From positions 6,120,462-6,184,461 of the forward strand of contig KB906767.1 in the NCBI GenBank assembly GCA_000381625.1: a stretch of DNA of 64,000 bases. Reading direction: 5' to 3'. Under the pieces are notes generated by a model, which ran no database searches, was not told the DNA's origin, and saw only the letters and a program-made list of their open reading frames with translations. The stretch is from Bryobacterales bacterium KBS 96 (GTDB lineage: Bacteria; Acidobacteriota; Terriglobia; Bryobacterales; Bryobacteraceae). This document shows positions 18,929-46,237 of this stretch, one piece after another. Each line of letters starts with the position of its first letter. Positions within the stretch are counted from its first letter, which is position 1. A program made the translations under genes and the position numbers.

Positions 18929-21900
18929 TCAGCGAAAAGTGACGATCTCCATCGCATAGTTCTGCGCGGAACTGGCGGTGAGAGAGGTTTGATACGATCC
19001 CGTGGCCGAGACGATGCGGTCGAGCAAGCAGACCGTGGCTCCATTGGAATCATTAGTTTGACTCTCGATGGTCCAGCCGCTGGCAGGACTGGAACAGAAA
19101 GGATTCGATGCTCCTGTCGCCGCCCAGGAAAAGAGATATTCATTTGCCGCCGTGGTAGTAACCGCGGCGGACGACCATGCGGTTGTCGACGTGAGGGATT
19201 CGTGAAAACCGGATTGATCAAGCGGCGTCGAGGAATTCAGCCCGGCCACCTCCGCCACGGCTACCAATAGATAGGTGCTGCCGCCACTGAAGTTCAACGT
19301 CAATGAGGCGGCGCCGCCGGCAGTGGACTTGGCGTAGTAGAAATTGTTGTAGATGGCGCTGCCGGAGACGTTATGGTAGATCGAAGTTGCCAGACCGCGT
19401 GTGAACGCGTCTCCGGAACCGTCGGTCACGCTGCTGATATCCAGAGGCCAGAAGCTCACTCCCACAATCAAAGTGTGCCCTGCGCCAGTGGCTTGGGGGA
19501 GGGTAAGGGTGACCGTTCCGCCGGCAGTAGGCTGGCGGCTGAAGGTAGCTTTCTGGATCAGAGAAATGGCGGGGAGAGCAGTCAGCGTGAAACCGTTGGA
19601 CAGAGTGCTGGATTGGCTGTCGGGATTGGTGACCGTAACGTTGCGAGAACCCAGGATGGCGGCGGAGCCGATGGCGATGTTGGCGGTGAGTTGAGTGGCC
19701 GAGTTGAACGTGCAGGAGTTCACGGTAATACCCGCTCCAAAGCTGCAGGTGGCGCCGCTTTGGAAGTTGCTGCCGGCGAGGATGACGCTGCTCAAATTCT
19801 GGCCCTGAGCGCCGGAATTGGGATTGACTGAGCTCAGCGTTGGTGGCGGAGGCGGACCAGTCGTGGTCACCGTGAAGCCGTTGGACAGAGTGCTGGATTG
19901 GCTATCGGGATTCGTGACAGTAACATTGCGAGAACCCAGGGTAGCGGCGGAGCCGATGCTGATGCTGGCGGTGAGTTGAGTGGACGAGTTGAAGGCGCAG
20001 GAGTTCACGGTAATACCCGCGCCAAAGCTGCACGTGGCGCCGCTCTGGAAGTTGCTGCCGGCGAGGATGACGCTGCTCAAATTCTGGCCTTGATTGCCGG
20101 AACTGGGATTGATTGATCTCAGCGTGGGGGGCGGAGGCGGCGACGATGACCCGCTCTTGAATGTCACGATCTCCATTGCATAATTCTGCGCGGAACTGGC
20201 GGTGAGGGAGGTCTGATACGATCCCGTGGCCGGGGCGATGCCATCGAGCAAACACACCGTGGCTCCGTTGGAATTGGTTTGAGTCTCGATGGTCCAGCCG
20301 CTGGCAGGACTGGAACAAGAAGGATTCGACGCTCCCGTCGCCGCCCAGGAAAACAGATATTCATTTGCTGCCGTGGTGGTGACTGTGGCGGATGACCACG
20401 CGGCGGTAGCGGTGAGTGAATCGTGAAAGCCGGATTGATCGAGCGGGGTGGAGGAATTCAGCCCGGCTACCTCCGCCACGGCCACCAATAGATAGGTGCT
20501 GCCGCCACTGAAGTTCAAGGTCAATGAGGTGGCCCCGCCGGCAGTGGACTTGGCGTAATAAAAATTGTTATAGATGGCGCTGCCGGAGACGTTATGGAAG
20601 ATCGAAGTTGCCAGACCGCGCGTGAATGTGTCTCCGGAACTGTCGGTCACACTGCTGATATCCAAAGGCCAGAAACTCACTCCCACAATCAAAGTGTGCC
20701 CGGCGCCAGTGGCTTGGGGTAGGGTAAGGGTGACCGTTCCGCCGGAAGTAGGTTGGCGGCTGAAGGTAACTTTCTGAATTAGAGAAATGGCGGGAAGAGC
20801 AGTCACCGTGAAACCGTTGGACAGAGTGCTGGATTGGCTGTCGGGATTCGTGACGGTGACGTTGCGCGAGCCAAGCGTAGCGGTGGAGCCGATGGTGATA
20901 TTGCCGGTGAGTTGAGTGGCCGAGTTGAAGGCGCAGGAGTTCACGGTAATACCCGCCCCAAAGCTGCAAGTCGCGCCGCTTTGGAAATTGCTGCCCGTGA
21001 GGATCACGCCGGTCAAATTCTGGCCCTGAGCGCCGGAAGTGGGATTGACCGAACTCAGTGTGGGCGGCGGAGGCGGACCAGCCATGGTCACTGTGAAGCC
21101 GTTGGACAAAGTGCTGGATTGGCTGTCGGGATTCGTGACCGTAACATTGCGAGAACCCAGAGTAGCGCCGGAGCCGACGCTGATGCTGGCGGTGAGTTGA
21201 GTGGCCGAGTTGACGGCGCAGGAGTTCACGGTAATAGCCGCCCCAAAGCTGCAAGTGGCGCCGCTCTGGAAGTTGCTGCCGGTGAGGATGACGCTGCTCA
21301 AATTCTGGCCCTGAGCGCCCGAACTGGGATTAACAGAACTCAGTGTGGGCGGAGGCGGCGAGGATGACCCGCTCTTGAATGTGACGATCTCCATCGCATA
21401 GTTCTGCGCGGAACTGGCGGTGAGCGAGGTTTGATACGATCCCGCAGCCGAGGCGATGCGGTCGAGCAAGCACACCGCAGCCCCGTTGGAGGAATCATTG
21501 AATTGAGTCTCGATGGTCCAGCCGCTGGCAGGACTGGAACAGAAAGGATTCGAGGCTCCCGTCGCCGCCCAGGAAAACAGATATTCATTTGCCGCCGTGG
21601 TGGTGACTGCAGCGGACGACCATGCGGTGGTGGGCGTGAGTGAATCGTGAAAGCCGGATTGATCGAGCGGGGTGGAGGAATTCAGCCCGGCCACCTCCGC
21701 CACGGCTACCAACAGATACGTGCTGCCGCCACTGAAGTGCAAGGTCAATGAAGTAGTGCCGCCGGCAGTGGACTTGGCGTAATAAAAATTGTTGTAGATA
21801 GCGCTGCCGGAGACGTCATGGTAGATCGAAGTTGCCAGACCGCGTGTGTACGTGTCTCCGGAACCGTCAGTCACGCTGGTGATATCCAGGGGCCAGAAGC

Positions 21901-22580
21901 TCACTCCCACGATCAAAGTGTGCCCTGCGCCAGTGGCTTGGGGAAGGGTAAGGGTGACCGTTCCGCCGGAAGCAGGCTGGCGGCTGAAGGTAACTTTCTG
22001 GATCAGAGAAATGACGGGGGGAGCAATTACCGTGAAGCCATTGGACAGAGTGCTGGATTGGCTGTCGGGATTGGTGACCGTAACGTTGCGAGAACCCAGG
22101 GTAGCGGTGGAGCCGATGGTGATGCTGGCAGTGAGTTGAGTGGCTGAGTTGACGGCGCAGGAGTTCACGGTAATACCCGCCCCAAAGCTGCAAGTGGCGC
22201 CGCTTTGGAAGTTGCTGCCGGCGAGGATGACGCTGCTCAAATTCTGGCCCTGAGCGCCGGAATTGGGATTGATTGAGCTCAGCGTTGGTGGCGGAGGCGG
22301 ACCAGCCGTGGTCACCGTGAAGCCGTTGGACAGAGTGCTGGATTGGCTATCGGGATTCGTGACGGTGACGTTGCGAGAGCCAACGGTGGCGGCGGCGCCG
22401 ATGGTGATGCTGGCGGTGAATTGAGTAGCCGAGTTGAAGGTGCAGGAGTTCACGGTAATACCCGCCCCAAAGCTGCACGTGGCGCCGCTCTGGAAGTTGC
22501 TGCCGGTGAGGATGACGCTGCTCAAATTCTGGCCTTGGTCGCCGGAAGTGGGATTGATGGAGCTCAGTATGGGCGGCGGG
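18929..22580 (-). repeat. Threefold in-gene tandem repeat, unit about 1.2 kb
   Basis: Three near-identical units lie at about 18929-20150, 20151-21365 and 21366-22580. The landmark ACGATCTCCATCGC/TGC recurs at about 18942, 20166 and 21384 (spacing 1215-1225). Each unit codes for two TIG domains and one beta module. Identity is high at the nucleotide level, including synonymous positions, which points to recent duplication or ongoing homogenisation. Confidence 0.85.
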
Positions 22581-24142
22581 TGCAGCGCGCGAAACAAGAA
22601 GTTAGCAGTGATTTGCTGCATCGCTGGAACGATGCCCTGGCTAGGCGGGAAGTCGTCGAGACCGAGACTCCACTCCATCGTACCGGTTGCAAAGACCAGA
22701 GCTCCGCTACCGGCGGTATAGATGGTCATGTCGCCAAAGACTTGCGGATCGTCGCGGGGATACGGGGAGTGGGCGAGGACGGTTGCTCCGGATGGCGGGT
22801 AAAGGGAATCGGTTTCGTATCCTTCCACGTTAGGGAAAATCGTTCCGTTGGTCACACCTGTGCCATCGAATAACCAATGAGACGCATTGGTGACCACGAT
22901 GTCAGACACAGTCGGCGCCGAGAAGAGGTTGTATTGAACGCCTAGGAGTTCCCCTTCGGGCTCTCCTAAGTCCCTCCACCGAGTGGTAACGAGGCTAGGA
23001 TCGGAAACGGGATCCATGGAAGCGAGTTCTTTGTAGCTGACCATGGTCCGGTCGGCAATGCCGGTGGAAGAGGGCTCGAAGCGAACTTGCCAAAATAATA
23101 CGTTGCTCGCAAAAATCCCGAGATGGACCCCGGCGTCGCGGCCTTGGGTCACGTTGTCGCGCATGTTCCGGGACCAATATTCATCGTGTCCGACCACCAA
23201 AAACACCTTATGGGTGAGAACTGTATTTGGATTTTCGTGGGTGTCTATGTCGGTCGCGTAAGTGATATCGTAGCCTTGGCTCTCCAGCCACCGAACCATC
23301 TGCATCTCGTATCCGGGAGCTCCGTTTAGGCTGACGAAATCTCCGGCGCCGAAATTCCGCCAGTAGGGGCGATTGAATGAGACCTTGACGCCCGTCTTGA
23401 CGCCAGTAGAGTCGGTGGTGTAGAGAGAGCTACCTCCCCACTCGTTGTACGCCTGATAAGTTGCGACGCTGGACTGAAACAGGATTGGCGAATTGCGAGC
23501 ATCGTCGCGCACAACGAAAACGATGTAGCTCTCTTTCGCCGGTGAGGACAGCGACAGCTTGACCAGATAGACTCCGCTGACCCAGTCTGTTGGAATTGTT
23601 AGGCTGTAGGAAACACTCCAATTGCATTCCACAATACCCGTGCCGAATGGTTGATATACCGGGGCGGGCGGCATTGGCTGAACAACGCCGGGCAGAGTAA
23701 CCGGGCCCAACATGAGACGGCCGCCCGTCCCGCTGTACCAGCCCATCCGAAAAACCGAGAGTGTGTAGGAGTTTGTATTTATGGTCCGAACGTGAAAATC
23801 GATCGTGCCACCCTGATTCACGCTGGTCAGCGAAGCATAGCCCTGGATTTCGGCATTAGCATAGTCAGCCGGATTTAGGTCATTGCTTGTGAACATGGTC
23901 GCTCGATTCGTGAGCTGCCAGGCGGTAGTTCCAGGTTTTGTATTTTCCACGGCCACAGAATCCGCTGCGTGGAGAGGGGTCGCTGTAATCAAACAAATAC
24001 AAAGACACAACGTTCGAAGTAAATAGCGTAGGTGTGATGTGGGAGCCTCTCGGTTCCATAGTCTCGCGCCCAGCGCAAGGCTTTCGCTGGCTGCGGTACA
24101 GTTCACCGCCGTTCTTCGACGCGATGGATGAGATGGGCCCAT
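18929..24142 (-). CDS. Giant exported protein: N,N-dimethylformamidase-like domain plus repeated IPT/TIG and beta modules
   Basis: 1737 aa. A signal peptide lies at about 39-59 (ends TPLHAADS), so the ATG at 24142 may be too early, but no better start has a clear ribosome site. Residues ~65-515 resemble the large-subunit domain of N,N-dimethylformamidase-like proteins (FRMGWYSGTGGRLM, FASNVLFWQVRFEP, GHDEYWSRNMR). After that come three copies of [TIG-TIG-beta module]: TIG pairs near 523-705, 1021-1210 and 1425-1515, and ~215-residue beta modules near 708-925, 1115-1333 and 1520-1737. Each TIG begins SSxNPxSGxQGQNLSSVIL. The module QKVTFSRQPxSGGTVTL is not one I can name. It ends without a sorting signal. 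Probably an extracellular or surface protein; its catalytic activity is uncertain. Confidence 0.8.
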   Translation of the reverse strand: MGPSHPSRRRTAVNCTAASESLALGARLWNREAPTSHLRYLLRTLCLCICLITATPLHAADSVAVENTKPGTTAWQLTNRATMFTSNDLNPADYANAEIQGYASLTSVNQGGTIDFHVRTINTNSYTLSVFRMGWYSGTGGRLMLGPVTLPGVVQPMPPAPVYQPFGTGIVECNWSVSYSLTIPTDWVSGVYLVKLSLSSPAKESYIVFVVRDDARNSPILFQSSVATYQAYNEWGGSSLYTTDSTGVKTGVKVSFNRPYWRNFGAGDFVSLNGAPGYEMQMVRWLESQGYDITYATDIDTHENPNTVLTHKVFLVVGHDEYWSRNMRDNVTQGRDAGVHLGIFASNVLFWQVRFEPSSTGIADRTMVSYKELASMDPVSDPSLVTTRWRDLGEPEGELLGVQYNLFSAPTVSDIVVTNASHWLFDGTGVTNGTIFPNVEGYETDSLYPPSGATVLAHSPYPRDDPQVFGDMTIYTAGSGALVFATGTMEWSLGLDDFPPSQGIVPAMQQITANFLFRALHPPPILSSINPTSGDQGQNLSSVILTGSNFQSGATCSFGAGITVNSCTFNSATQFTASITIGAAATVGSRNVTVTNPDSQSSTLSNGFTVTTAGPPPPPTLSSINPNSGAQGQNLSSVILAGSNFQSGATCSFGAGITVNSCAVNSATQLTASITIGSTATLGSRNVTVTNPDSQSSTLSNGFTVIAPPVISLIQKVTFSRQPASGGTVTLTLPQATGAGHTLIVGVSFWPLDITSVTDGSGDTYTRGLATSIYHDVSGSAIYNNFYYAKSTAGGTTSLTLHFSGGSTYLLVAVAEVAGLNSSTPLDQSGFHDSLTPTTAWSSAAVTTTAANEYLFSWAATGASNPFCSSPASGWTIETQFNDSSNGAAVCLLDRIASAAGSYQTSLTASSAQNYAMEIVTFKSGSSSPPPPTLSSVNPSSGAQGQNLSSVILTGSNFQSGATCSFGAAITVNSCAVNSATQLTASISVGSGATLGSRNVTVTNPDSQSSTLSNGFTVTMAGPPPPPTLSSVNPTSGAQGQNLTGVILTGSNFQSGATCSFGAGITVNSCAFNSATQLTGNITIGSTATLGSRNVTVTNPDSQSSTLSNGFTVTALPAISLIQKVTFSRQPTSGGTVTLTLPQATGAGHTLIVGVSFWPLDISSVTDSSGDTFTRGLATSIFHNVSGSAIYNNFYYAKSTAGGATSLTLNFSGGSTYLLVAVAEVAGLNSSTPLDQSGFHDSLTATAAWSSATVTTTAANEYLFSWAATGASNPSCSSPASGWTIETQTNSNGATVCLLDGIAPATGSYQTSLTASSAQNYAMEIVTFKSGSSSPPPPPTLRSINPSSGNQGQNLSSVILAGSNFQSGATCSFGAGITVNSCAFNSSTQLTASISIGSAATLGSRNVTVTNPDSQSSTLSNGFTVTTTGPPPPPTLSSVNPNSGAQGQNLSSVILAGSNFQSGATCSFGAGITVNSCTFNSATQLTANIAIGSAAILGSRNVTVTNPDSQSSTLSNGFTLTALPAISLIQKATFSRQPTAGGTVTLTLPQATGAGHTLIVGVSFWPLDISSVTDGSGDAFTRGLATSIYHNVSGSAIYNNFYYAKSTAGGAASLTLNFSGGSTYLLVAVAEVAGLNSSTPLDQSGFHESLTSTTAWSSAAVTTTAANEYLFSWAATGASNPFCSSPASGWTIESQTNDSNGATVCLLDRIVSATGSYQTSLTASSAQNYAMEIVTFR

Positions 24143-45227: not shown

Positions 45228-46148
45228 GTGGCGGCGGTGGCGCTTCTTGGGCCCGTATTGCTGCTCACGAGTTGTATCGGACTGGGTGATTTTGATCGTG
45301 TCAGCGAGGATTTCCACTATTCGCATGATCTTCAGCCGGGCGGCCAACTTGACCTCGAAACCGACAACGGCGCCATCGATATTACCGGTTGGGATCAGAA
45401 CCGCATTGATATTTCCGGCCAGAAATACGCGCCTTCCAAAGCGGAGTTGCAGCAGGTAAAAGTTGTCATTCAGGTCGAGGGTGATAACGTGAAGATCCGC
45501 ACCGATCACCCGCGCGGCAGTTCATGGCACGGCGGCTATGGAGCCCGTTATCAGATTCGCGTGCCCCGCCGGATCGCGCTCGGTTTGGTCCAGAGCACGA
45601 ACGGCGCTATTACGTTCGAAGATCTAATTGGTCCTGGCCATGTCCAGACCACAAACGGAAGCGTCTCGTTGACCCGCATCGAAGGAGATTACGACGCGCA
45701 CACGACGAATGGATCGGTTCACGTTCAGGACAGTAGCGGCAACGTTCGCCTGCACTCCACAAATGGCGCAATTAGAGGCAATCTGAAAAAAGGCTCTGTG
45801 ATTGCGGAAACTACAAACGGCGGCGTGGATTTCACGGTGGATTCACCATCGCCCTCGCAGGCTTTCCGGCTGCACTCAACCAATGGCGGAATCACGCTTC
45901 GCTTAACCAGCTTCTCGGACAATGCCATCAAGGCGGAAACCACAAATGGTGGCATCACGCTGCGCATCCCAGGCGACACTAACGCCATGCTGAGCGCCAA
46001 CAACTCGAATTCGAGCATCACGACCGATTTAACTCTCTCCGGATCGGTTAATGAGTCGAAGCATCACGTTTCGGGTCAGCTCGGGAGCGGCGGACCACTC
46101 ATCGAGTTGCACACCTCAACCGGCGGCATACATATCGAGAAGAATTAG
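45228..46148 (+). CDS. Lipoprotein with DUF4097-like beta-helical repeats
   Basis: About 306 aa from GTG 45228. The lipobox LLLTSC (Cys16) fixes the mature start. The open frame runs up to 44808, but that part is repeat DNA. ATG 45018 has GAGGGAG before it but would give an improbably long n-region. The mature part has short strand repeats with TTNGSV, STNGAI and TTNGGIT turns, the pattern of DUF4097 (adhesin-like, beta-helix). Probably outer-membrane-associated; the function is not known. The true start is uncertain. Confidence 0.6.
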   Translation: MAAVALLGPVLLLTSCIGLGDFDRVSEDFHYSHDLQPGGQLDLETDNGAIDITGWDQNRIDISGQKYAPSKAELQQVKVVIQVEGDNVKIRTDHPRGSSWHGGYGARYQIRVPRRIALGLVQSTNGAITFEDLIGPGHVQTTNGSVSLTRIEGDYDAHTTNGSVHVQDSSGNVRLHSTNGAIRGNLKKGSVIAETTNGGVDFTVDSPSPSQAFRLHSTNGGITLRLTSFSDNAIKAETTNGGITLRIPGDTNAMLSANNSNSSITTDLTLSGSVNESKHHVSGQLGSGGPLIELHTSTGGIHIEKN

Positions 46149-46237
46149 GAGTCTCGAGAAGAATTAGGAGTCGTTTCTACTGCACCCGCGCAGCGGCGGT
46201 TCCGAGCAGTTCGGTTGCTTCCAGTTCCGGCCGTGCC

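Follow-up and report, generated by a model that had tools for sequence, protein, structure and literature searches.

The window analysed here, a 64,000-nucleotide stretch of the genome of Bryobacterales bacterium KBS 96, holds on its minus strand an open reading frame (ORF) of 1737 residues, the last 1214 of which form a tail of three in-frame units of 398-400 codons each (Table 1). Internal repeats are common in bacterial surface proteins. Less ordinary than the repeats themselves is an uncatalogued domain with phage look-alikes, used here as a shuffled cassette. The locus raises the questions of how its three units have come to resemble each other, what this domain is, and what a tail of this kind may do behind an enzyme-like head.

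Table 1. Features of the repeat-bearing gene. Positions are those of the window; residues are those of the 1737-aa protein.
Feature	Position	Strand	Residues	Basis or remark
Whole coding region, 1737 aa	18929..24142	minus		ORF list; ATG 24142 start uncertain
Hydrophobic leader	23963..24040	minus	about 35-60	inspection of sequence
DMFA2_C domain (PF20254)	22655..23764	minus	127-496	E 7e-115
Tyr aligned to Fe ligand Y399	23447..23449	minus	Tyr232	phmmer alignment
Tyr aligned to Fe ligand Y440	23420..23422	minus	Tyr241	phmmer alignment
His-Asp-Glu aligned to H519-P520-E521 (E521 = Fe ligand)	23180..23188	minus	His319-Asp320-Glu321	phmmer alignment
Unit U1	22573-21374	minus	524-923	
Ig-like (TIG-like) domain T1	22301..22573	minus	524-614	Pfam and NCBIfam matches
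Ig-like domain T2	22016..22288	minus	619-709	Pfam and NCBIfam matches
Beta module B1	21374..22015	minus	710-923	copy used for structure model
Unit U2	21349-20156	minus	932-1329	
Ig-like domain T3	21077..21349	minus	932-1022	NCBIfam match
Ig-like domain T4	20792..21064	minus	1027-1117	NCBIfam match
Beta module B2	20156..20791	minus	1118-1329	
Unit U3	20128-18932	minus	1339-1737	
Ig-like domain T5	19856..20128	minus	1339-1429	NCBIfam match
Ig-like domain T6	19571..19843	minus	1434-1524	NCBIfam match
Beta module B3	18932..19570	minus	1525-1737	up to C-terminus

The repeat units, the leader and the head domain

The first-pass annotation had described a threefold in-frame repeat of about 1.2 kb, and a repeat search of the window as well as alignment of the units confirmed that this repeat is real. 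Each unit comprises two Ig-like domains of about 91 residues each and one beta module of 212-214 residues. The beta part was recovered three times, at spacings of 1221 and 1224, and a 272-nt Ig-like repeat was recovered six times, the other five copies being 88-92% identical to the reference copy. At score 50, Tandem Repeats Finder gave one other tandem array in the window, consisting of two exact 19-bp units at 46135-46172.

The Ig-like domains are matched by Pfam PF09099 (Qn_am_d_aIII) and NCBIfam NF058597 (CoaZ_rpt_PGGG), with six stretches each. The NF058597 match totals 223.1 bits against a cut-off of 30, and all six places are individually above this cut-off. The Pfam TIG model is absent from the four Pfam families listed for the protein at E≤1. 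Six Ig-like repeats are thus present as had been annotated, but the name TIG was used loosely. What sets the protein apart from the NF058597 and PF09099 families is that the domains are paired here between copies of an unnamed beta module.

At the N-terminus, a hydrophobic leader can be recognised by eye, and similar leaders are present in the orthologue from a second genome of the genus (G001) and in a further relative (L051). Judged by inspection of the sequence, the protein is probably exported, as previously proposed; its start codon is uncertain. A GGAGG-like stretch precedes ATG 24142 (window 24000-24142), but at the corresponding position the G001 orthologue lacks an ATG.

The leader is followed by a DMFA2_C domain that covers positions 1-369 of the 374 profile positions with 384.8 bits (Pfam cut-off 27). 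In phmmer searches against PDB chains, N-acetyl-(R)-beta-phenylalanine acylase (8huy) was matched with an E-value of 9e-8 and the large subunit of dimethylformamidase (6lvb) with a whole-sequence E-value of 1.4e-4. In the published account of the Paracoccus dimethylformamidase, Fe is bound by Y399, Y440 and E521, and two other residues, H519 and N547, are described as essential (PMC7686228). Equivalents of all five are found in the window protein, where N347 aligns with N547 and the others are as listed in Table 1. The positions of a dimethylformamidase-type iron site (two Tyr, Glu and a nearby His) are kept, by weak local alignments. The two stretches behind this mapping have E-values of their own of only 2.8 and 0.22 and overlap in the query, and the mapping therefore rests on the family match and on motif identity. 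It is plausible, judged from these alignments, that the head is an iron-dependent amide-hydrolase-like enzyme. As the putative ligands are kept, it would probably act outside the cytoplasm, on an amide or a related bond. The window protein shares the DMFA2_C domain with dimethylformamidase and 8huy; however, only part of the solved chains was matched, the sequence similarity to 6lvb and 8huy is weak, and the window protein has an extra leader and a repeat tail.

DMFA2_C-like matches were present in 19 of the 41 genomes searched. A paralogue in the same genome (L099:1311-6953, C1 about 2067810-2073452), 1881 aa long and 40% identical, combines the same kind of head with a C-terminal array that is likewise long. 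In this array Big_7, DUF4082, 3keto-disac_hyd and four BACON_2 stretches replace the Ig-like and beta units of the window protein, which fits the idea of exchangeable tails on one kind of head. An ORF of G001 (L102:1-3474) is related to this paralogue. Near both genes lies an ORF with a closely similar N-terminal sequence, which we take to be oxidoreductase-like. The gene order around these two loci looks partly kept in both genomes, unlike that at the window gene.

Divergence and history of the repeat units

For the pairs U1-U2, U1-U3 and U2-U3, respectively, identities were 0.896, 0.917 and 0.899 at the DNA level and 0.894, 0.897 and 0.907 at the protein level, with dN values of 0.050, 0.051 and 0.046 and dS values of 0.325, 0.205 and 0.325. 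The resulting dN/dS ratios of about 0.14-0.25 would be consistent with purifying selection acting on the protein of the repeat units. At positions with the same residue, Met and Trp being left out, the codon was identical in fractions of 0.795, 0.873 and 0.795 (n=351, 353 and 356). The random expectation, from 1000 draws among the gene's own synonymous codons, averages 0.36 and never exceeds 0.453. The observed identity is far above chance, so that homology of the units at the DNA level is certain. The earlier remark that the units agree at synonymous sites was thus borne out, with 80-87% same codons against an expected 36%. Calling them near-identical was too strong: the units are clearly homologous in their DNA, but they are only 90-92% identical and the longest exact runs span just 79 nt (U1-U3), 56 nt (U1-U2) and 42 nt (U2-U3). 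Nor does a recent tandem duplication, as it had been worded, agree with the synonymous divergence of 0.20-0.33.

A scale for this divergence is provided by G001, whose orthologue lies on the contig of record JAICLJ010000021.1 from a Bryobacteraceae bacterium MAG. Between the enzyme domains of the two genes dS is 0.46 and dN 0.053 (461 codons), so that the dS between units amounts to about 0.45-0.7 of the enzyme-domain value for two species of the genus. At E≤1e-5, the 18-kb G001 locus matches the window nowhere but in the gene and in some 170 bp upstream of it, so that orthology rests on the gene itself. In the G001 orthologue the three beta modules are preceded by two, three and two Ig-like domains, respectively, seven in all.

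A contig scan for close relatives returned four loci, all from Acidobacteria or subgroups by title, one of which is the G001 contig. In L052, from 'Acidobacteria bacterium isolate gp2', a beta-Ig-Ig-beta arrangement is preceded by about 800 unrelated N-terminal residues, among which an fn3-like stretch (E 4.7e-5) reaches 24.0 bits, just below the cut-off of 25. L053, which bears the same isolate name and is broken by runs of N, has the same parts of the cassette behind an N-terminal part of this kind. In L051 a beta module follows straight after the leader, and the array continues as beta-Ig2-beta-Ig3-beta up to the contig end. Because parts of it occur in other contexts in these three loci, the cassette is, by sequence comparison, exchangeable between unrelated proteins. 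The copy number of the modules varies between species and between genes, as seen for the window gene, G001 and L051-L053.

We compared the copies of four genes (the window gene, G001, L052 and L051) in two maximum-likelihood trees, one built from 11 beta copies and the other from 20 Ig-like copies, the latter taken as fixed 87-residue windows placed by pattern. L053 was left out (runs of N, broken frame), and L051_B3 was kept though shortened to 136 codons by the contig end. In both trees the copies clustered by gene in all four genes. Ultrafast bootstrap values for the window gene, G001, L052 and L051 were 63, 98, 99 and 100 in the beta tree and 47, 78, 99 and 94 in the Ig-like tree, so that the own-copy grouping of the window gene itself is weakly supported (63 and 47). 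The dS between beta copies is 0.27-0.36 within the window gene and 0.22-0.34 within G001; between these two genes it is 0.38-0.54, equal positions not being favoured. Between G001 and L052 it is higher, at 0.78-0.92, and yet in the beta tree the G001 copies join those of L052 (support 70) and not those of the window gene. Positional pairing of the units with those of G001 fits 6 of 20 shared variable sites, whereas the five other pairings fit 3-6 sites; positional orthology of the units is consequently not supported. Since the copies group by gene and no signal of positional orthology was detected, these comparisons support, in a weaker sense, that the copies were either homogenised or separately re-amplified after the split from G001.

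The alternative is a plain old tandem duplication, that is, one tripling followed by independent drift without homogenisation. The dS of 0.20-0.33 is substantial, as would be expected on this view, and clear conversion tracts were absent in the run tests. Indeed, permutation tests of the longest run gave p-values of 0.029, 0.064 and 0.170 for variable sites and of 0.039, 0.010 and 0.458 for synonymous codons (U1-U2, U1-U3 and U2-U3, respectively), and none of the six (p 0.010-0.458) falls below the Bonferroni limit of 0.0083. However, a duplication that preceded the split from G001 predicts positional pairing, of which neither the trees nor the shared sites show any sign; independent triplings in the two lineages, later than the split, would still be compatible with its absence. 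Altogether, we regard a single old tripling followed by drift as doubtful. As for gene conversion, which the first-pass annotation had named alongside recent duplication, the grouping by gene fits homogenisation or re-amplification, but the tracts themselves are nominal only.

Family searches, predicted fold and distribution of the beta module

The beta module had been suggested to be a new surface domain. The check for a clear database match returned none above cut-off for the window copies in Pfam or NCBIfam and none among the PDB sequences: for copy B1 the Pfam search gave CBM_X2 with 12.6 bits (cut-off 28.9) and the NCBIfam search nothing at E≤1, and profiles built from 17 and 26 sequences of the family had no match in the PDB sequences at E≤10. 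The 17-sequence alignment used 7 of 23 matches from outside the genus. Three candidates that surfaced among its 17 members are not believed, namely CBM_X2 (four members at E≤1, best 0.0025), MliC (three members, best 0.014) and FimG (one member, 0.017). Among the PHROGs, two minor tail families were matched by the 17-member set, phrog_553 by two members (best 5.9e-4) and phrog_2106 by one (0.025); the window copy had no such match at 0.01. The 26-member set gave only the unnamed phrog_6813, for one member, at E≤0.01. The lack of a Pfam or NCBIfam assignment and of a relative among PDB sequences speaks for the suggested novelty, but the family is wider than the first-pass annotation had envisaged and reaches virus contigs.

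Structure prediction, which had been put forward as a check, was of no use with an alignment of ten close sequences (pLDDT 49.6). With the 26-sequence alignment, AlphaFold2 gave a confident, all-beta model of B1 (pLDDT 90.4, pTM 0.90). A Foldseek search with this model returned no match in the PDB at E≤0.001. In BFVD it returned 66 predicted viral proteins at this threshold, the best with an E-value of 1.2e-9. The highest TM-score by query, 0.83 (rmsd 2.9), belongs to the second-ranked match and compares a prediction with a prediction. Among the best 50 of the 66, 32 bear names of phages or tailed viruses, six of these being minor tail proteins, and 18 are unnamed. The models thus suggest a fold common to most of the beta module and to phage minor-tail-like predicted proteins, including those of the Mycobacterium phages Hawkeye and Gaia. 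The likeness is one of predicted fold: identities are only 11-24% among the best 50 of 66, many of the viral proteins are unnamed or uncharacterised, and, unlike in the phage proteins, the module sits here in a cellular protein and in three copies.

A second look with VIA placed an ion-channel domain of the PDB (6v4s_D) on top, with a Z-score of 8.1 over 99 aligned residues, and also listed XepA (Z 7.4) and, at Z 7.2 and with 22% identity over 73 residues, a phage receptor-binding protein (9rpt_C). Most of these matches span only about residues 1-111, so that the model's second half was hardly probed. Z-scores of 7-8 to PDB structures may perhaps reflect a common arrangement, and nothing more. 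With neither Foldseek nor VIA did a solved structure stand out for the beta model; this absence does not show that the fold is new.

More distant members of the beta family were present in 10 of the 101 genomes of a relatives search and, by a profile search scoring up to eight candidates per genome, in at least 10 of 396 genomes of the phylum, the own genome being counted in both cases. In G036, a genome of the same bacterial family, 12 matches are spread over four contigs; one of its loci (L101:1888-11418) stays open for at least 3177 aa and holds several copies of the beta family. In IMG/VR, searches with the two alignments returned 12 and 9 loci on virus contigs, some of them repeated, viral being the label of the collection. 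The domain sequences of L059 and L061 repeat those of L058 and L060, and L086 and L095-L098 had already been recovered earlier. Among the matches listed from the profile search there were none in L062-L066, and the 26-sequence alignment does not include these loci. In L060 a small beta ORF is situated directly upstream of one that matches a major tail protein (4.3e-18), and in L092 an ORF matching a minor tail protein (3.6e-7) is followed by the beta ORF. On a virus contig of 126 kb, L058:2-5893 is open over 1964 aa and includes four divergent beta copies; the contig of L059, which has the same copies, is 363 kb long. The window beta copy itself gave no tblastn match at 0.01 among GenBank phages and plasmids, and for this reason the link to phages consists of fold, intermediate sequences and context.

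The profile search also uncovered a distant fourth beta relative in the own genome (L103:13288-13980, C1 about 5507287-5507979), encoded by a small ORF with a leader. It adjoins a 994-aa ORF that matches phrog_17509 (unknown function, 1.4e-9) and whose repeats are presumably tail-fibre-like. Six of the ten ORFs scanned in this region match PHROGs, including a metallo-phosphoesterase, a DNA-binding protein, a methyltransferase and an RNase H, and the region may be a prophage remnant.

Possible function of the tail

Our preferred reading, to which we assign a probability of roughly 55%, is that the protein is an amidohydrolase-like enzyme which is exported and bears a trivalent binding tail of exchangeable cassettes, the copies of which are kept alike by intragenic recombination. 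The DMFA2_C head, with a putative Fe3+ site of two Tyr and one Glu, would hydrolyse its amide or related bond outside the cytoplasm, and the Ig-like pairs would serve as spacers between the beta modules. Each beta module, belonging to a family shared with phage proteins, would bind a surface or polymer, most likely a glycan, and the presence of three copies would provide avidity. Unequal crossing-over, gene conversion or re-amplification within the gene would keep the copies alike.

The tail might instead be an anchor or elastic spacer at, or away from, the cell envelope, with the copy number setting its length. This view draws on the name of the NCBIfam model matched by the Ig-like part ('choice-of-anchor Z repeating domain') and on the extension of B3 to the very C-terminus, and binding by the tail is itself putative. 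However, the beta family also occurs in virus contigs, for example beside the major-tail-protein ORF of L060, where an envelope anchor makes little sense, and we therefore consider an anchor or spacer unlikely. That the repeat number is an assembly artefact is barely credible: repeats are in general prone to mis-assembly, but the 6.69-Mb genome is assembled in two contigs with the repeat region present once and with just three places matched by one beta copy, all in the tail (E≤0.001), the units differ at 8-10% of sites, and the separate genome G001 likewise encodes three beta modules within a single open frame.

A more far-reaching extension of the binding-tail reading, which we put forward as a tentative and rather speculative idea, is that the beta module serves phage tails as a binding domain and was acquired by Acidobacteria, or the reverse, that it was amplified as part of an Ig-Ig-beta cassette, and that it became attached to various secreted enzymes. 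Phage and bacterium would then grip the same surfaces by means of one uncatalogued domain. If this were true, recombination of cassettes would tune both the valency and the specificity of the enzyme. The locus brings to light an all-beta family of about 200 residues that has no Pfam or NCBIfam model, occurs in Acidobacteriota and in virus contigs, and comes with a confident structure model and 26 diverse aligned sequences. It also presents, as a natural design, an iron-amidohydrolase-like head joined to a repeated, exchangeable tail. Should the module bind glycans, it would give access to the targets recognised by Acidobacteria and by their phages.
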